IMG/VR virus record: IMGVR_UViG_3300041955_000444
Coordinates: 1 to 55,109 of that record
Reading direction: 5' to 3' (one strand)
From: a virus
Length of the DNA: 55,109 bases
Every line of letters begins with the position of its first letter. Positions within the stretch are counted from its first letter, which is position 1. The notes beneath the pieces were generated by a model that was not told the origin of the DNA, ran no database searches, and saw only the letters and a list, made by a program, of their open reading frames with translations. Position numbers and translations under genes: made by a program. Below are positions 25,796 through 33,347 of this stretch, in pieces.

Positions 25796-26109
25796 TGCAT
25801 CCTCCCACCTTCGGTTTCCGGCATCACCGTCGCGGCGCTTTCGCGGACTCCCTCCGCGACGCGGTTGAAGAAGCCGCCGAACTCCCGCAGGAAGTCCGAT
25901 ACGACCGCCGGGACCATCGTGACGGACGTCCGGGGGACCAGAATTTCCATTGCCTCGTTCGTCCCGTCGCCCTTCGGGACGAGTTGTTGTTCGAAGAATG
26001 TGACACGAAAAACCCCATTAATGTAGGTGAACCGAATGCAGTTCACGTATAGCGACGGGACTTGGAACGCTAGGGGAAGTTGTGCAAGCGGCACTGCGTT
26101 GGGTGGCAT
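25792..26109 (-). CDS. DUF3467-like small protein (105 aa)
   Basis: The chosen ATG (26109) has AAAGGA ten bases upstream; an earlier in-frame start falls inside the upstream gene. The core YVNCIRFTYINGVFRVTFFEQ...ILVPRTSVTMVP..V.DFLREFGGFF resembles the DUF3467 pattern (YxNxVxVxHxxxEFxLxF ... P..A..L...L). That family has no firm function. Assignment is by pattern only. It is the last well-supported leftward gene. Confidence 0.6.
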   Translation of the reverse strand: MPPNAVPLAQLPLAFQVPSLYVNCIRFTYINGVFRVTFFEQQLVPKGDGTNEAMEILVPRTSVTMVPAVVSDFLREFGGFFNRVAEGVRESAATVMPETEGGRMQ

Positions 26110-26114
26110 CTGGG

Positions 26115-26510
26115 TTAGTCCTTTTTTGAGTCCGCAGGATTGGGCTCGACCTTGAAGTCTTTGGGGAATTTTATCCGCAGTTGTGTACCTACTTTCCACT
26201 GCGGGTCCTCCACGTACTCCAGACTACGTATAAGTTCGTCTTGTTCTTCGGATATTCGTGCGAGACTCTCATGAAAGAGTCTCTCAGCGATTCGGCTTCG
26301 CAACGTTGTCGCCTCTCTGATCAACTTGCGCTCGGGTTCGCTTAGTTGCGAGAGACGCCACTCACGGTCGTCGGGAAGTTCAGGAGGTACCTTGCGTTGG
26401 ATTTCTTCGATCAATCCTTCGAGCGCTGTGATCTCGTCACGGAGCCCTTCGATCTTTGTGTCGGCTTTAGCAATCGCCGCTGCACGTAATTGGCGGGTTT
26501 CTTCAGTCAT
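26115..26510 (-). CDS. Hypothetical coiled-coil protein (131 aa)
   Basis: The start at 26510 (MTEETRQLRAAAIAKAD) is preferred to one 42 bases further upstream, which lies in the leader. The product is almost wholly charged helix (KIEGLRDEITALEGLIEEIQRK; LSEPERKLIREATTLRSRIAERL), so a coiled coil is expected. A promoter-like element (26554-26583) lies upstream. Function unknown. Confidence 0.65.
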   Translation of the reverse strand: MTEETRQLRAAAIAKADTKIEGLRDEITALEGLIEEIQRKVPPELPDDREWRLSQLSEPERKLIREATTLRSRIAERLFHESLARISEEQDELIRSLEYVEDPQWKVGTQLRIKFPKDFKVEPNPADSKKD

Positions 26511-26553
26511 CGTAGGGGAGGTCCTTTCGGGGGTGTGGGGGCTTGCCCCCACC

Positions 26554-26583
26554 AGGGGGTTATGGTGCCACTTTGGCCGGGGC
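26554..26583 (-). promoter_or_regulatory. Promoter-like element (copy E), degenerate
   Basis: On the minus strand GCCCCGGCC (26583-26575) is followed after seven bases by CACCAT in the -10 position. It matches the other copies in the 9-mer and spacing but lacks a good TATAAT and the right-hand repeat. It sits between the DUF3987-like gene and the coiled-coil gene. Confidence 0.4.
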
Positions 26584-26592
26584 GTCTGTCAC

Positions 26593-27813
26593 TTACTCCG
26601 CTGTTCGGAACTGTTTTGCAAGGGGCTTCCAGAGGTCCGCTCCTTGGTCGACACATTCGATCGCTCGGGTGCGGACGGCCAGCGCGAGGGTCCGTTCGAC
26701 CTTGTCCGCCGTGATGCGCTCGCCGATGAACTCGATGATGCGGCCGCCGGGAATGGGCTTCGCGGACTTGCGGTAAGCCCCGACGATCCAGTGGTAGAGC
26801 TCTTCAACTATAGCCCAGTCGTTCTTCCCCTGCATAGCCCTGAAAACCTCGGGCATTTTGCCTTCGATCTCAAAGAGCCACTCTAGTGCCCGTTCGATGT
26901 CGATTTTGTCGATCCCGCTGAGGTCGATCTTGCGGGACACTGCGGAAATGCCGGCCAACTTTTGGATGAATCGGGCCCGTTCGGTGTTATAAGGTATCAT
27001 CCGCGAATGCGTTGGCACCGGCGGCTCGCCTGCGAGGACCCATTCCTGGAAGTACTTCCGGGCCTCGGGGCTCCACCGCAGTTCGCCCCACATGACACTG
27101 ACGCGGGCGAGCTTTTCGAGGATCCTCTTGCGGAGCACAAAAGGGTCCGGGTACTCAGTGAAAGGATCACGTATCCTCCGTTCGGCTGAGTAAACCATCA
27201 CAATCCTCCGCGCAAGTCCCGTTGCCCAGACTTCTTCCGGGAACACCGTCGCGAAGTACGAGGGCTGGACCCCTGCGAGGATGTTTAGTTGGGGCTTCTC
27301 AATCTCGACCAACTTCACGTTGAACCGGCGTTCCTCGACGTGCCGCGGCGGGGAGTTCCAGATGCGCTCTAGCGTCCCGATGTATTCCATATCGTAAGCC
27401 GGGAGCAGGACCTTGAACTCCTCCGACGCCACCAAGAGCGAATGGTACTCGACTGTTTCGCCCTTCTCGTCAAGCTTCACTTGGCGTGCTCGCCCGAGGG
27501 CGTCGATGAGGCTCGCCTTAGTGAGGGAGTCCGACGCTACGTGAAACGACTTCGCTTGCGTGAAGGGATCCCGCGTGGTGTTCCAGAATTCGCGTACGGT
27601 TTCCACAATGAACTTCCCGGTGCCGGACGGTCCGACGAGGAGGACGTAGAGATTGCAGTACGTCCGGTTCATCCCGGTTCGGACCCATATCTTGCGTTCC
27701 ATCGCGCCGGCGACAAGTGCGATGCCGGACCACTTGCGGTAAATTTCGGGCGACCTGTCGTCCTGCGTGGCGGACGTGTAGGCGAACCAATCCGTGATGA
27801 GATCATCCGACAC
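26593..27813 (-). CDS. DUF3987-like P-loop ATPase, putative replication helicase
   Basis: The product has 406 residues with GTG start (27813) after GGGGAGA. LYVLLVGPSGTGKFI at 55-69 is a Walker A loop, and SLLVASEEFKVLL (about 124-136) is a plausible Walker B with paired Glu. The layout, with LARRIVMVYSAERR downstream, matches the DUF3987 group of phage and plasmid ATPases linked to replication. The base after the P-loop Lys67 encodes Phe68 instead of the usual Ser/Thr (TTC instead of TCC), which is unusual for an active ATPase. It follows the polymerase gene. Confidence 0.7.
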   Translation of the reverse strand: MSDDLITDWFAYTSATQDDRSPEIYRKWSGIALVAGAMERKIWVRTGMNRTYCNLYVLLVGPSGTGKFIVETVREFWNTTRDPFTQAKSFHVASDSLTKASLIDALGRARQVKLDEKGETVEYHSLLVASEEFKVLLPAYDMEYIGTLERIWNSPPRHVEERRFNVKLVEIEKPQLNILAGVQPSYFATVFPEEVWATGLARRIVMVYSAERRIRDPFTEYPDPFVLRKRILEKLARVSVMWGELRWSPEARKYFQEWVLAGEPPVPTHSRMIPYNTERARFIQKLAGISAVSRKIDLSGIDKIDIERALEWLFEIEGKMPEVFRAMQGKNDWAIVEELYHWIVGAYRKSAKPIPGGRIIEFIGERITADKVERTLALAVRTRAIECVDQGADLWKPLAKQFRTAE

Positions 27814-27830
27814 ACTACTTCGTCTCCCCC

Positions 27831-29432
27831 TTAGCGGAACCTCAGCATCACGTCACCGTCGCCCGCACCTGCTCCGAAGCCCATCCCAGGGAACCTAACG
27901 CGGATGCGGGGGTCCTTCGTTCCGAGTTTCCACTTACGAAGCCCATCGGGGTTAGTAGGAGTTTCGACGCCCCAGTTCCATCCGACTTTCGCATCGCCTG
28001 GCACGACATAACGGCGACCGCTGGGCGACCGAAGCTCTACCTTGATGAGTTCGAGCACGTGGGACATGATTTCGTCCTCGACCTTTGGGCCCTCGTCACG
28101 GAACTGGAACACAATACTGTCGAATCCCTGCGCGAGGAGGCCTGCCCTCGGCTCGCGACACCAAACGCGCCACATTCCGAGGTTCATCCGTTGCGCGGTG
28201 GTTCCTTGGGGTTGAAACGCGATCGCTTCGCGGTGCGTCGCAGGGTCGTTAGGGCGGCCCAGGAAGGTCCGGCGGAACCCAAAGAGCGTCTGCAACGTGC
28301 CTCGTGTCTGAAGCTCTGTGATCGTCCAAGCCCACCACCTCGGAATGCAGCCGAACGCCGGGGACACGGAAACCCCATTCACCAACCCCCCGCGACAGTA
28401 TCGGACCTGAAACTCCTCAACTAGGTGGAGGGGAATTTTGAGCCTCTTCGCAAGTGTGTAAGCGGTTCCCATATAGTTTGAGCCGTGCCCTCCGCGCTTT
28501 GCAACATCACGGTAAGTAAAATTACGATAATAGATTGTATCAGCAAGCGCTCGGTCGTGGCGGGGGTCCCCTGTCCATGCTAGCTCGGGCCAGACCTTGC
28601 GAGCGTTGTTCGTGTGGAAGTCACTCGACTCCGTCGCGTCGAGCAGGCTCCAATCATCGAAAAGGCACCCACAAATAAACCCCACGTCGCGAGCCTCGAC
28701 TTGTTCGAGGTCTACATAACCGAGTCGGAATCCGGGGTCGGCTTGGAACACGTGGCGGAGCGAGGGATCGATGTTCTGAGCATTCCGGCCGATGCCGAAG
28801 GCGTTGGCGCTGCTGGAAGGTCGTCCTGTTTCAGTTCCAACAATGTTGTAACCTGCCCTGAACCGTCCGTCATTGTCAAGGTCACACTCGAAAACCTCGA
28901 GTTGCTTGGTGAGGTCTCGTATCGACAGGATAATATTGATGAGGGGGGTTGCGTGGATGTAGTTCTCCGAAAGTTTCTCTAGCGCTTCGCGATCGACGGC
29001 CACATGCCTCGCTCCTTTGACGGACTTCCATTGCTCCGGGAGGTGCATCACATCGTAGAAGAGCGTCTTGAGTTGCTTGGTCGAGGCGTGGTTCAGTGAC
29101 GGGAGCCCGAACCCCCCAGTGACAACCCGTTCGAACTGGGCGCCGAGGGTGGCAATTCGGCTTCGCAACGCTGTTGCTTCCTCGTACCGCCCAAACGCAT
29201 CGACGGCGAATCCCCGGCACATCATGTCGAGGTAGGGTGCTTGCAAGGCGCGCGTGAACGCATACTGGGGTTCCCACGTCGAGGCGGTCGGAGCGTAAGT
29301 CCGCTTCACCTCGGTCAGGATTTCCGCCGTGAGGCAACAATCCAGACCGTTGTATATCTGTGCGGTCTCGCTCGGAGTGAACCCGGCGTTGCTTTGGTCG
29401 ATTGTCGAGGTGTCAACTAGTCGGGAGGTCAT
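27831..29432 (-). CDS. Family A DNA polymerase, with only the ExoIII part of the proofreading domain
   Basis: The product has 533 residues. YNGLDCCLT at 27-35 is exonuclease motif III (Tyr27, Asp31); motifs I and II are missing and lie in the gene at 30014-31207. Polymerase motifs follow: TETGRPSS (200-207), motif A LGYVDLEQVEAR with Asp241, motif B RDVAKRGGHGSNYMG (308-322), and motif C QGFDSIVF with Asp438. Motif C has Phe and Ser where HDE usually stands, so the second acidic residue is replaced. The start overlaps the upstream TSCPD-like gene as ATGA. It is the replicative polymerase candidate. Confidence 0.9.
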   Translation of the reverse strand: MTSRLVDTSTIDQSNAGFTPSETAQIYNGLDCCLTAEILTEVKRTYAPTASTWEPQYAFTRALQAPYLDMMCRGFAVDAFGRYEEATALRSRIATLGAQFERVVTGGFGLPSLNHASTKQLKTLFYDVMHLPEQWKSVKGARHVAVDREALEKLSENYIHATPLINIILSIRDLTKQLEVFECDLDNDGRFRAGYNIVGTETGRPSSSANAFGIGRNAQNIDPSLRHVFQADPGFRLGYVDLEQVEARDVGFICGCLFDDWSLLDATESSDFHTNNARKVWPELAWTGDPRHDRALADTIYYRNFTYRDVAKRGGHGSNYMGTAYTLAKRLKIPLHLVEEFQVRYCRGGLVNGVSVSPAFGCIPRWWAWTITELQTRGTLQTLFGFRRTFLGRPNDPATHREAIAFQPQGTTAQRMNLGMWRVWCREPRAGLLAQGFDSIVFQFRDEGPKVEDEIMSHVLELIKVELRSPSGRRYVVPGDAKVGWNWGVETPTNPDGLRKWKLGTKDPRIRVRFPGMGFGAGAGDGDVMLRFR

Positions 29433-29737
29433 TTTGGGGTCCCCTCGATCAGTGCCAACGCAGCCCCGAGTGGCCCTAACATCGTCCCGTCGAGTTCCTG
29501 CGAGAGTGCTGCCATAATCTCGCTTGATGGAACCCCGTGCTGCAACGCTATGCTTGCCAGAGTCGCCATGTCTTTCGCGATGAGGTTCATCGGATCTCCT
29601 GGCTTCGCCACGTCGATGAAGAATTCCGCAAGCGCCCCGTCGAGCTGTCGGGAGTACGTCACGATGTATGTTAGGTTGTCATGCACAAACTCAATTGTTT
29701 CCGCTAGTCGGCAATTTGGGAGTTTCACTCGGGGCAT
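29429..29737 (-). CDS. TSCPD/NrdJ C-terminal-like small protein (102 aa)
   Basis: The pattern RLAETIEFVHDNLTYIVTYS, DGALAEFFID, then ASIALQHGVPSSEIMAAL and GPLGAALALI resembles the TSCPD-type domain found at the end of B12-dependent ribonucleotide reductases and as stand-alone proteins in Rhizobiales. The Cys residues of a metal-binding version are absent. The stop overlaps the polymerase start (ATGA), so it is co-translated with the polymerase. The function of stand-alone members is unknown; a link to nucleotide supply is speculative. Confidence 0.6.
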   Translation of the reverse strand: MPRVKLPNCRLAETIEFVHDNLTYIVTYSRQLDGALAEFFIDVAKPGDPMNLIAKDMATLASIALQHGVPSSEIMAALSQELDGTMLGPLGAALALIEGTPK

Positions 29738-29743
29738 TGGGGT

Positions 29744-29974
29744 TTACATCCTGTGTTTAACAGGGTGTTGCATACAGTTCCAAGTCCACCCAATACGCCG
29801 GACGGCGAGGCCGTCGAGTGGCCCAAGACCACAAATGCGACAAACAATCTTACGTGGGAGTGGTTTACGATACTTCTGTGAAGCTTTAAATCTGGCCTCA
29901 ATTACACTCCACTCGGCGGACTCGGTGGAGGCGGAAGTAGAACGCATAAACTCAGCCCCGACGAACTCATCCAT
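29744..29974 (-). CDS. Hypothetical protein (76 aa) with one CxxC
   Basis: GGAGG stands six bases before ATG 29974. The product contains one CRIC pair (IVCRICGLGPLDGL) and a C-terminal Cys, not enough for a confident zinc finger. It lies between the two halves of the split exonuclease-polymerase. No family recognised. Confidence 0.55.
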   Translation of the reverse strand: MDEFVGAEFMRSTSASTESAEWSVIEARFKASQKYRKPLPRKIVCRICGLGPLDGLAVRRIGWTWNCMQHPVKHRM

Positions 29975-30013
29975 CTTGCCCTCCTCACTTTCGCCCTCCT
30001 CGCCCTCGATCGC

Positions 30014-31207
30014 TTACTCATCCGTTTTCGCCTCCTCGTCTTTCCCTCGCTTCCGCATGAGCTTCCACGAAGGCTCGTTCGTGTAGAGCGACCCTAAAAA
30101 CCCCAAGCCCTTCCGCATTTCAGGGTGAATCGCGTGGTGGAGTAGCATTGTGTCGTCCGCGGCGTTCCGCACGGCGAAGCCGTCCCGAAGGAGCCACTGA
30201 ATGTCGTAAAGGCCGTTCTGGAAGAGCTTCGGCCACGGCGACGCAAGGATCACTCGGACGAGGTGGCGTGCCGCTAGTTCGTCCGCCGCGGTGCGCCAGT
30301 AGGAGCGATACAAAGGGGCGTCCCCAGCGACCTCGACGAACGGGACCACGAGGCCATTCGCCCGGCCAACGGCAAACCCGACGGAGGTGATTTGGCCACC
30401 CTTGGTTTCGATGTCGCACGAGACATGCAACCCCCGCTGGCGCAACGTGGCTTGTGCGTGGTTCCACCATTCGCAGATGTCGTCTAGCTCGGGAGAGATG
30501 AGAACGTGGCGCGACGGGCGGGCGAACGCTGGAGTTGCGCTCTCCCTCCACGCCTTAATGAGGTCTGCAACGGTCACACTCCGAGCGCTCCATTGGCGCA
30601 AGACGTAAGCAGGATGAAATGTCGTGATCAGTTTTGGCGGCCCGGGCATAACGGTCCCGCGCACGGCGCTATGTGTCGCCGCTTGGTCTTGTGGCAGGCG
30701 TAGGGCGGCCGTCAGGCCCCAAAGGGACGCGGCCCCCAGCGCCACTACCAGATTCGGCGACGCCGCTGTAACCTCGTCCCTGAGGCGGGCTAAGTGTCCG
30801 CAGAACTCCTCCCTCACGTAAAGGTGCCTCGGACTTCGGACGAGGGGCGGTAACACTCGCCCGGCGAACACCAGCCCCTTCCCGGTCGGCCCACACAGTG
30901 CGTCGAGTTTGTTGTCTGCCGGTCGGAGGTTGAACACATTCGTCAGGGCAATCCCCGCCCCGCGGAGCCATTCTTCGCGCTTAGTGAGGAACAGGGAGTC
31001 GTTCGCGTAAAGCACCCGCTTCACGGCATCGTAGTCCGGTCCCGGCGCTATGCGGGCGTCGCCCAGCATCCGGAAGAACTCCTTCCCGGAGTGCCCGATG
31101 AAAGGCGCCTGGAGGAGTTCTTCGGACTGGCCCCACGCCTCTCCGACGAAGAGGATACGCGGCTTGCGCGAGCCACACCAGGCGGCAAAGGGTTCGGAGG
31201 GGCTCAC
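30014..31207 (-). CDS. Uracil-DNA glycosylase fused to the N-terminal half of a 3'-5' exonuclease
   Basis: The product has 397 residues. Residues 17-205 are a family 4/5-like uracil-DNA glycosylase: VGEAWGQSEELLQAPFIGHSG, TNVFNLRPADNK, and FHPAYVLR as the HPxxxxR loop. Residues 260-375 are a DnaQ-type proofreading domain with ExoI SCDIETKGG (Asp265, Glu267) and ExoII FQNGLYDIQW (Asn331, Asp335), ending at DTMLLHHAIHPEMRKGLGFL. ExoIII is absent here and begins the polymerase at 27831-29432. A UDG-like domain joined to a polymerase is known in some phages (SPO1-type). Here the chain is split. It overlaps the methyltransferase gene by ATGA. Confidence 0.85.
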   Translation of the reverse strand: MSPSEPFAAWCGSRKPRILFVGEAWGQSEELLQAPFIGHSGKEFFRMLGDARIAPGPDYDAVKRVLYANDSLFLTKREEWLRGAGIALTNVFNLRPADNKLDALCGPTGKGLVFAGRVLPPLVRSPRHLYVREEFCGHLARLRDEVTAASPNLVVALGAASLWGLTAALRLPQDQAATHSAVRGTVMPGPPKLITTFHPAYVLRQWSARSVTVADLIKAWRESATPAFARPSRHVLISPELDDICEWWNHAQATLRQRGLHVSCDIETKGGQITSVGFAVGRANGLVVPFVEVAGDAPLYRSYWRTAADELAARHLVRVILASPWPKLFQNGLYDIQWLLRDGFAVRNAADDTMLLHHAIHPEMRKGLGFLGSLYTNEPSWKLMRKRGKDEEAKTDE

Positions 31208-32697
31208 TTTCCGAGACTTTCGGTCGCCGCCGCCGCCCCGGTCGCCCGCCGCAGAGCCCTCGCCCTTAGAAGCGCGGTGTTTGCCGTCCGGGCCATCTCG
31301 GGCGAAACTTCAAGCCCCAGCACCCGTTCCGCCCGCAACGCCTCGGCGGCCCGGAGTGCGCTTCCGGAGCCGCAAGTGGGATCGAACACGCGGGAATGCT
31401 CATCGCAGAACATCCCCATGAAATACCTCAGCATCGGCTCGGGCTTCGCGCTCATGTGGAGGGAGTTGTCTGTTGGGGCGGAGTAAACATCCGAGACGTA
31501 CTTCACGATGGGGCGGTCTCCACGGCCGCCCACTAGGCAGGTTTCATAAATATGGCGGGGAGTTCCGGGCGTCATGAACCCCGCGTTGTCGGACTTGTGC
31601 CAAACGAGCGGGAACCGCAAGAAGGCGAAGCCGGGAACCCGGCCAAAGGCCGCGCGCGTCATGGCGTCAATCTCGACCCGGTTCGAGTACCAAAACATCA
31701 CATGGCAGCTTTCGCTGGCGAAGCGGTCGAAATGCGTCACTAAAGCTTCAAGTAGCGCCGTATAAATCTCGGGGGTATCGGAGTAAAGTTCCCCTACCTC
31801 GCGGTGGAGCGCGTTGGATCCCGACTTATGTGTCAACTCCCCGAGCGCAATGCCGTAAGGGAAATCGCAGTGAATGAGGTTGAACCGAGGGCCGGAGTAT
31901 GTTGGAACCCATTCCAGGAAGTTGGTGTTCAGGATTGGGAGTGTTGGTGTTGGTAGAGTTCCTCCAGCGCCGCCGATGCTATTTCGTTGCGTTTGCGGAG
32001 GTGGGAGTTCAGTTCCTGGAGTTCCTTGATGATCATTACTAACATAACTCCCGTTGGAAATAGCCCCAATAACAAAGTCGTTAGTTCCATTGGCTTCGCC
32101 TTCCTCCTCCGTCGGGGTCGCCTCGCCCAACCACTCTTCGAGTTTGTTCGATTGCGCCCGTTTCTGGCGTCGCTGGAGCATGTTGTATGCCTCGTTCACG
32201 GTGCCGCATCTGCGGACGCCGTCGTCGTGCCAGAACTCGTTGATGAAATGATACTTCGCTACAAGCGACCCGTCACCCCACCCCAGCGACAGCCCGGTTT
32301 GTTCGAACGTCTGTGATGGGTCCTCTTCGGTGAAGAGCGTATGGAGCTTGCAGACGCTCTGGCAGGTCTCCTGCCATGTGAGATCGCAGCGTTTCGCGTT
32401 CTCTTCGAACTCGATGATTTGGACTTCACTCGCCGAAGGCGAGCGCGCAAAGCGAAACGGAATATCCGCCAGCCCCAGCATCAACGATGCTGCGTACCTG
32501 CGTTCGCCGGCATAGAGGGTATGGTAGCCCCGAGCGTCCGGCACTTCTTCGAGGATCACCGGTGCGAGGACCCCCCGCAGGGCTATGCTCTGCAAAAGTC
32601 CCCCCGCTTCCGGGTTCGGGTCGCGACGCTGGCGTTCGTCGCGTTCAACCCAAACGCGCTCAAGGGGCATTCGGCCGAAGATGTTGGTGATAGGCAT
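31204..32697 (-). CDS. ParB-domain / DNA methyltransferase fusion
   Basis: The product has 497 residues. Residues 1-110 are a ParB/Srx-like N-terminal domain with the GERRYAA box (64-70). Residues 265-480 are an amino-methyltransferase with the beta order of motifs: catalytic motif IV HCDFPYG (277-282, a DPPY variant) before the SAM-binding motif I FDPTCGSGSALRAA (438-451). A low-complexity Pro/Thr/Asn linker (about 220-255) joins them. The likely product is N6-adenine or N4-cytosine methylation that hides phage DNA from restriction or marks it. The specificity is unknown. Confidence 0.83.
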   Translation of the reverse strand: MPITNIFGRMPLERVWVERDERQRRDPNPEAGGLLQSIALRGVLAPVILEEVPDARGYHTLYAGERRYAASLMLGLADIPFRFARSPSASEVQIIEFEENAKRCDLTWQETCQSVCKLHTLFTEEDPSQTFEQTGLSLGWGDGSLVAKYHFINEFWHDDGVRRCGTVNEAYNMLQRRQKRAQSNKLEEWLGEATPTEEEGEANGTNDFVIGAISNGSYVSNDHQGTPGTELPPPQTQRNSIGGAGGTLPTPTLPILNTNFLEWVPTYSGPRFNLIHCDFPYGIALGELTHKSGSNALHREVGELYSDTPEIYTALLEALVTHFDRFASESCHVMFWYSNRVEIDAMTRAAFGRVPGFAFLRFPLVWHKSDNAGFMTPGTPRHIYETCLVGGRGDRPIVKYVSDVYSAPTDNSLHMSAKPEPMLRYFMGMFCDEHSRVFDPTCGSGSALRAAEALRAERVLGLEVSPEMARTANTALLRARALRRATGAAAATESLGK

Positions 32698-32738
32698 ATG
32701 CGTGTTATCCCCTCTTGCGGAGCTTCGCTGGAAAAGGC

Positions 32739-32783
32739 CCCGAACGAAGCCACAAAAACACTACTTTCGTGGCTTCGTTCGGG
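32739..32783 (-). terminator. 15-bp perfect hairpin upstream of ParB-methyltransferase gene
   Basis: CCCGAACGAAGCCAC (32739-32753) pairs perfectly with GTGGCTTCGTTCGGG (32769-32783), loop 15 bases. It stands in the 173-bp spacer between the ssDNA-binding candidate and the methyltransferase gene. The T-run lies inside the loop rather than after the stem, so it may be an attenuator, a processing site or a factor-dependent terminator. Confidence 0.55.
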
Positions 32784-32870
32784 TAGTCACTCAGCGGGAG
32801 GGTTGGGGGTACAGTTCCCGCAGAGGAAGTTGGGGGCTTCGCCCCGAAGGGTGCCCCAAAGGGCGCCCCC

Positions 32871-33347
32871 CTAGTCGCTCCGACGCTCCGTGATCACCCG
32901 GCCGTCGATCACCAGCTTGACGTCGCTGGCTTCTTTCATCTCGCCGGTGCCCACTCCGTTGACTTTTCTCTCGTATTGCCGCCGAGTGTGCGAAAGCTCC
33001 GTTTCACGTCCGATGCACTCCGGAATGTACTCCGAGGGCCGCTTCCCGCGACGCTCCACCCCGCACGCATCAACGAACATGTTCAAGTAGAAGTACGAGT
33101 CAACCTTGCTCGGATCGACATGGAACTCCTTGAAAATTCGCCGCTTCGTGACGTCGAACTCGCCATCGACGCCATCGGGGAACCTCGTCGGCCGGGCTTC
33201 AATCGTGATGGTGCCCAGTTCGTCGCTCCACCGACACGGGCCGACCTTCCATCCCGCGACCATAACGGGGTAGATGCCATCGGGCAACTCAGGGGGTGCT
33301 TTCGCTTCGCTGGTATCGACGTTCGTTAGTGCAAGCATGTCAACCAT
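32871..33347 (-). CDS. Putative ssDNA-binding protein (DUF669-like)
   Basis: The product has 158 residues. The N-terminal PPELPDGIYPVMVAGWKVGP, then ITIEARPTRF, RRIFKEFHV and FYLNMFVDACG, follows the OB-fold-like DUF669 pattern of phage ssDNA-binding proteins that sit beside Sak4-type recombinases. The C-terminal part is charged. Here a Sak4-like ATPase lies about 900 bp upstream, which supports the call. The start overlaps the preceding small gene. Confidence 0.6.
   Translation of the reverse strand: MVDMLALTNVDTSEAKAPPELPDGIYPVMVAGWKVGPCRWSDELGTITIEARPTRFPDGVDGEFDVTKRRIFKEFHVDPSKVDSYFYLNMFVDACGVERRGKRPSEYIPECIGRETELSHTRRQYERKVNGVGTGEMKEASDVKLVIDGRVITERRSD

Follow-up and report, generated by a model that had tools for sequence, protein, structure and literature searches.

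A clade-wide split places the proofreading residues of a phage family A DNA polymerase in two genes

Introduction

Some phages encode a family A DNA polymerase that carries a uracil-DNA glycosylase (UDG) domain and a proofreading exonuclease in the same polypeptide, an architecture published for gp205 of Pseudomonas phage PaBG (PMC7412058) and shared by Microcystis phage Mel-JY34, ctMlz233 and vir526 (phrog_17). Here we describe a stretch of viral DNA, the IMG/VR virus record IMGVR_UViG_3300041955_000444 (55,109 bases, hereafter the window), that encodes all three domains in an identical order, but on two genes of the minus strand: a UDG-exonuclease protein (UDG-exo; 30014-31207) and a polymerase protein (Pol; 27831-29432). 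The one-chain enzymes hold exonuclease motifs ExoI to ExoIII in a single polypeptide, whereas in the window ExoI and ExoII belong to UDG-exo and ExoIII belongs to Pol.

Split phage polymerases are already known; what is unusual here is the position of the cut and its fixed state in a large clade. OM43 phages MEP401/MEP402 (PMC10580990) and Vibrio phage VS-ABTNL-3 resemble the window in that a small gene separates the two genes of their family A polymerase, but their cut lies inside the polymerase domain and leaves the exonuclease site whole in the first protein. In the T4-like Aeromonas phages 25 and 44RR, split gene 43 likewise specifies a two-protein replicative polymerase (43A/43B), which differs in belonging to family B and lacking a UDG; the 43A and 43B products of phage 25 co-purify and are active (PMC2988022). 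In phage Aeh1, NrdA is split at a site critical for function, and its two products likewise rebuild a fully functional enzyme (PMC2988022). It differs in being a ribonucleotide reductase, interrupted by a mobE insertion, whereas the polymerase split described here is ancient and clade-wide. Thermus phage G20c PolI is not split at this position, and ExnV1 is a truncated polymerase that retains ExoIII. Our search of open-licence papers turned up no family A enzyme divided at its proofreading site; the split phage polymerases described in these papers are cut at other positions.

Proofreading exonucleases are usually seen as self-contained domains. Here the DEDD residues lie in two genes throughout a clade, with no observed reversal, so the clade is a natural experiment on the upkeep of a catalytic site across a protein interface and on whether subunit association can control fidelity.

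Results and discussion

The exonuclease motifs lie on two neighbouring genes

UDG-exo is a 397-amino-acid (aa) protein with a GTG start. A family-4-like UDG domain (residues ~1-225; Pfam UDG PF03167, E 2.6e-13) is followed by the N-terminal half of a DEDDy exonuclease (DNA_pol_A_exo1, E 0.0014, below the curated cut-off) that contains ExoI (SCDIETKGG; D265/E267) and ExoII (FQNGLYDIQW; D335). The 533-aa Pol begins with ExoIII (YNGLDCCLT; Y27/D31) and continues into the thumb, palm and fingers of a family A polymerase (DNA_pol_A PF00476, E 4.4e-19). In profile searches against the PDB, UDG-exo matched TM0511 (1.8e-29) and TtUDG (9e-25) and, weakly, Klenow, and Pol matched Klenow/Taq, placing it in family A and not family B. 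The pair thus possesses all three DEDDy motifs (ExoI D-x-E, ExoII N-x3-D, ExoIII Y-x3-D) on separate open reading frames (ORFs), where an earlier note made from the DNA letters had located them.

On the PHROG_17 profile (DNA polymerase, 1445 positions), UDG-exo covers positions 557-798 and Pol covers 806-1234. Since these segments adjoin, the two proteins are neighbouring pieces of one family, with the seam between ExoII and ExoIII and almost nothing missing. The UDG, exonuclease and PolA segments stand in phrog_17 order across the pair, on two proteins. On the Klenow fragment, the UDG-exo profile falls on residues 16-121 and the Pol profile extends from residue 173 onward (chain numbering), in agreement with this seam.

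The same cut recurs in at least 125 loci and traces to one event

Three kinds of query, the window proteins, alignments of their relatives and one-chain relatives, recovered at least 273 loci from viral contigs. The two alignment scans that included split members yielded about 550 relatives each, and locus counts given here are among the matches listed. At least 197 distinct loci contained both parts, encoded by one ORF in 65 and separately in 132. Subtracting from the 132 those with other kinds of break leaves a split clade of at least 125 distinct viral loci with the same cut as the window, so that the search for fused and split homologues proposed in the earlier note turned up both layouts in quantity. 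Both genes were also found in the same order in four contigs binned with bacterial genomes, namely Acidobacteria, Terriglobia, Phycisphaerae and Actinomycetes metagenome-assembled genomes.

The cultured Caulobacter phage Kuura carries the same split, and illustrates why annotation can end with just a "DNA polymerase" (Kuura_026) and a "hypothetical protein" (Kuura_029, the UDG-exo). The passages found in the Kuura paper name only a DNA polymerase, and its assembly was verified by BamHI digestion (PMC9959647). The window itself is metagenome-derived, which counts in favour of an assembly or sequencing artefact, either a frameshift or a chimera of a one-chain gene, as the source of the split. 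This explanation is refuted by the relatives: at least 125 loci and Kuura share the cut and a further contig (L002) has an identical arrangement, which leaves an artefact with practically no chance of being correct.

In a FastTree phylogeny of 116 dereplicated polymerases, a branch with Shimodaira-Hasegawa (SH) support of 99 separates all 83 split rows from all 33 one-chain rows, such that one change suffices. The one-chain UDG-exo-PolA proteins form the sister group, and the closest of them share the neighbourhood of the split genes, with a methyltransferase upstream and a primase-like gene downstream. This single-change tree therefore points to one ancient fission without re-fusion among the sampled members, though rare re-fusions might escape notice because sampling depends on the queries used. 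The earlier note had named two findings that would speak against a true split, ExoIII also present in the UDG protein and a continuous ORF restored. Inside the split clade we found no case of the former and no fused ORF. In a distant relative, MW202554 (L048), the cut comes after ExoIII; this is a different event outside the split clade, and the placement of this relative is uncertain because it sits on a long branch. As far as gene sequences and their tree can establish it, the split is real, of single origin and stable.

Both halves of the exonuclease are conserved

In the split clade, 121 of 121 loci have the Asp and Glu of ExoI and the Asp of ExoII, and 124 of 124 have the Tyr and Asp of ExoIII. 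The UDG motif is held less strictly, with His198 in 115 of 120 loci and Glu23 as Glu or Asp in 116 of 120. Between the window and its nearest relatives, the ratio of nonsynonymous to synonymous substitution rates (dN/dS) is 0.10-0.17 for the exonuclease half of UDG-exo and 0.11-0.22 for Pol residues 1-60, values that are rough because synonymous sites are near saturation. By these measures both exonuclease halves are under purifying selection. Catalytic invariance and low dN/dS fit selection for a working exonuclease site despite its being encoded by two genes, and they argue strongly that proofreading has been retained rather than lost.

The possibility that the fission destroyed the exonuclease and left its motifs as relics draws on the weak, sub-threshold match of UDG-exo to the Pfam exonuclease model, and on phage PolA variants with an inactivated exonuclease, such as divPolA1 (PMC11348598). 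Relics would drift, yet across a deeply diverged clade the five residues do not vary in 121-124 loci, a stricter conservation than that of the UDG motif, and dN/dS is about 0.1-0.2; we give this explanation a slim chance. The earlier note had offered two possibilities, a site completed in trans and a proofreading function that is lost or regulated. The invariant residues, purifying selection and modelled pairs described below favour completion in trans, and the same conservation speaks against loss.

The two proteins might instead act apart, with UDG-exo working by itself in repair or as a nuclease, and the ExoIII helix retained in Pol chiefly because the thumb region structurally begins there. 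Stand-alone exonuclease domains such as ExnV1 do exist (PMC9629493), and the UDG domain gives UDG-exo a possible role of its own. ExnV1, however, contains ExoIII and UDG-exo does not. A DEDD site that lacks its last Asp should be inactive, the Pol residues that never vary (Y27 and D31) are exactly the catalytic ones of ExoIII, and the modelled pair docks like one chain. We therefore consider separate action to have a small probability.

The polymerase motifs are also kept: motif A Asp and motif C Asp are present in all scorable rows of the split clade, and motif B Arg and Lys in 118 of 118 scorable rows. Within motif B (RDVAKRGGHGSNYMG, window 28460-28510), position 762 (E. coli numbering) is His in 118 of 118 scorable split-clade loci and likewise, read by eye, in one-chain relatives; this position has been described as Phe/Tyr/Leu in phage PolA (PMC6302109).

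The halves are separated by variable spacers

Between the two halves, split-clade loci contain a spacer of -1 to 2793 nucleotides (nt), with a median of 510. In L117 the spacer is -1 nt, with stop and start overlapping as TAATG, and in L116, L149 and L027 it is 1, 26 and 56 nt; none of these four loci has a gene between the halves. Elsewhere the spacer gene families differ between loci, and include DUF7768 (18 loci), DUF1937-type (15), TSCPD-type (5), HNH/zinc-finger-type (5), DUF7220-type (5), deoxyribosyltransferase-like (4) and MazG-like (3, a name assigned by eye only) genes, or nothing. The gap between the halves is a slot for small passenger genes.

This variability bears on whether the halves are rejoined before acting, by a group I or II intron, split-intein splicing or ribosomal frameshifting. 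Phage polymerase genes often contain introns and inteins, and one one-chain relative (L243) has an intein-like insert in motif B. An intron was also proposed by the authors describing the OM43-phage split (PMC10580990). Across window positions 26000-33000 we detected no Rfam match at E<=1, and reading of both ends of the split revealed no intein motifs. Zero-length spacers, unrelated spacer contents and the lack of an Rfam match together make joining by intron, intein or frameshift very unlikely, and the C-terminus of UDG-exo is moreover conserved up to its stop codon across the clade.

That C-terminus ends in a conserved tail, K-(K/R)-(D/E)-(D/E)-stop, across split loci. We considered the tail as a docking tip and set this idea aside, since overlapping gene starts may offer a nucleotide-level coupling instead and structure models show the tail disordered or nearly so. 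The tail codons often hold the ATG of the next gene plus a Shine-Dalgarno-like stretch in another frame: an ATG lies within the last 9 nt or the stop codon of UDG-exo in 93 of 121 loci, and in 73 of 121 its 3' end overlaps the start of a further ORF, 35 aa or longer. Conservation of the tail may thus reflect coupling to the next gene.

Spacer genes in about 37 of 82 dereplicated loci fall in nucleoside deoxyribosyltransferase-like clusters (DUF7768, DUF1937 and Nuc_deoxyrib_tr; for example L014:4642-4983, L108:4666-5001 and L013:3977-4396). As these adjoin a uracil glycosylase, they possibly reflect a linked nucleotide or base chemistry.

The two halves are predicted to form a Klenow-like enzyme

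We performed AlphaFold2 predictions on single chains from loci with both genes in the same frame, reading through the stops so that the natural spacer became the linker. The L143 pair, modelled with an alignment of 27 same-frame readthrough pairs, gave a predicted local distance difference test (pLDDT) of 86 and a predicted TM-score (pTM) of 0.82; disorder was confined to the linker and the C-terminal tail next to it in this account of the model. In Foldseek comparisons this model matched E. coli Klenow with a target TM-score (TMt) of 0.74 over 604 aa, and the one-chain viral protein A0A516L7M2 with a query TM-score (TMq) of 0.70 and TMt of 0.77 over 823 aa (root-mean-square deviation (rmsd) 5.1). 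For the L060 pair, a close neighbour of the window in the tree, pTM was 0.76 and the Klenow TMt 0.71-0.74. In both models Pol starts with a short strand (residues 410-413 and 505-508), and rmsd to Klenow is large (8-11). These predictions support a Klenow-like arrangement of the two halves.

Our favoured explanation, which we regard as likely, is that a single ancient gene fission left an exonuclease site that is built in trans from two polypeptides, and that proofreading was kept. A one-chain UDG-exonuclease-polymerase A gene would have undergone a single break in the common ancestor of this large clade of phages, at a surface loop between the ExoII and ExoIII motifs. UDG-exo and Pol would be translated separately from one operon and then assemble into a Klenow-like enzyme, to which UDG-exo contributes Asp, Glu and Asp (ExoI and ExoII) and Pol contributes Tyr and Asp (ExoIII). 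In the established DEDDy mechanism, acidic residues and a Tyr act with two metal ions on a 3' end; in the assembled enzyme, the five residues would bind both metals together with the 3' end at the interface of the two polypeptides. Judging by how the catalytic residues are distributed, the two proteins must very probably come together to proofread, and we infer both their physical association in the cell and their exonuclease activity. The proposed break site has a counterpart in Thermus phage G20c, whose PolI has an extra structure, S-beta-alpha-R, at residues 158-223 towards the end of the exonuclease domain (PMC9629493). By our reading this structure would sit between ExoII and ExoIII, where the split clade is cut, and its presence suggests that the broken loop tolerates change.

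Several points weigh against this explanation. The models join the halves in one chain through a readthrough linker, and AlphaFold2 knows Klenow, both of which make them lean towards a Klenow-like pairing. ExoIII Tyr and Asp could be kept partly for other reasons, and locus counts are shaped by the queries used. Covariation between the exonuclease half and Pol, measured by mutual information, is only modestly above a UDG-Pol control. Among the top 100 covarying pairs, 65% fall inside Pol residues 1-170, versus 52% for the control and 46% after permuted pairing; as control and permuted pairing show much of the same bias, we set this enrichment aside. One pair, Q337-M71, is an outlier (z 9.1; control maximum 7.2).

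The split might also allow UDG-exo to act as a separable, exchangeable subunit for proofreading and uracil removal that binds and leaves Pol, so that fidelity is tunable or the exonuclease can be swapped. UDG-exo would then act much like DnaQ in Pol III, except that both proteins would contribute to the active site. We hold this idea tentatively and think it rather unlikely; if true, proofreading would be adjustable. The pair may also provide a two-part polymerase to which proofreading can be added, or from which it can be omitted, in vitro.

Genes around the split polymerase

The window encodes podovirus-like packaging and head genes (terminase, portal phrog_156, major head protein and head closure Hc3), and its replication block occupies about 35-26 kb on the minus strand. 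Upstream of UDG-exo is a ParB-N / N4-N6 methyltransferase protein (31204-32697, minus; Pfam ParB_N, with N6_N4_Mtase just under cut-off), and downstream of Pol is a DUF3987 / phage primase-like protein (26593-27813, minus; Pfam DUF3987, E 1.6e-9; phrog_14296 DNA primase, E 5e-29). Both are conserved neighbours of the split polymerase by synteny, the methyltransferase gene in most relatives. Two small ORFs separate the halves, as the earlier note had described, and relatives back one of them. The 102-aa TSCPD-like gene (29429-29737, minus; Pfam TSCPD, E 9.1e-5, just over cut-off) has counterparts of 81-86% identity in L005, L007 and L008 and is under purifying selection. The 76-aa ORF (29744-29974, minus) has a CxxC...C-H pattern and weak support: it has no Pfam or PHROG match and, among relatives, occurs only in L002, a contig identical there. 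The stop codon of the methyltransferase gene shares bases with the start of UDG-exo (31204-31207), as does that of the TSCPD-like gene with the start of Pol (29429-29432, ATGA), and this tight packing around UDG-exo and Pol suggests that they belong to one operon.

UDG-exo has a family 4 UDG fold with GEAxG and HP motifs whose residues are mostly retained. Family 4 enzymes have an Fe-S cluster with four Cys ligands; the Cys-x2-Cys that TtUDG carries at its N-terminus was not seen in the window protein. In L030 and L018 the GEAxG motif is gone from the UDG-exo N-terminus and the exonuclease residues are kept; by these motifs, uracil excision may have been lost in part of the split clade.

Other breaks in the family

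Outside the split clade, Vibrio phage VS-ABTNL-3, L265 and L268 have a break inside the palm that represents separate events. Four loci (L265:1575-1793, L268:5123-5858, L264:1596-1755 and L263:5168-6109) are interrupted at a similar palm position near QNIP, at residue 533-545 of the L043 polymerase, which suggests a second recurrent break or insertion site. An HNH homing endonuclease as the cause of the original break in the split clade would be speculation by analogy with Aeh1, where insertion of the homing endonuclease mobE broke nrdA (PMC2988022); HNH genes are a minority of present spacer passengers.

Two one-chain-type relatives, L248:757-3377 and L269:3540-6160, have an interruption of ~300 nt between the UDG and exonuclease domains, and L012:2983-4421 shows a possible three-way split with the UDG part, exonuclease half and polymerase on three ORFs. 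The intein-like insert in polymerase motif B of the one-chain relative L243 (3471-6746) is in frame (HG|CVTAGHEV...VTGN|SNYGG).

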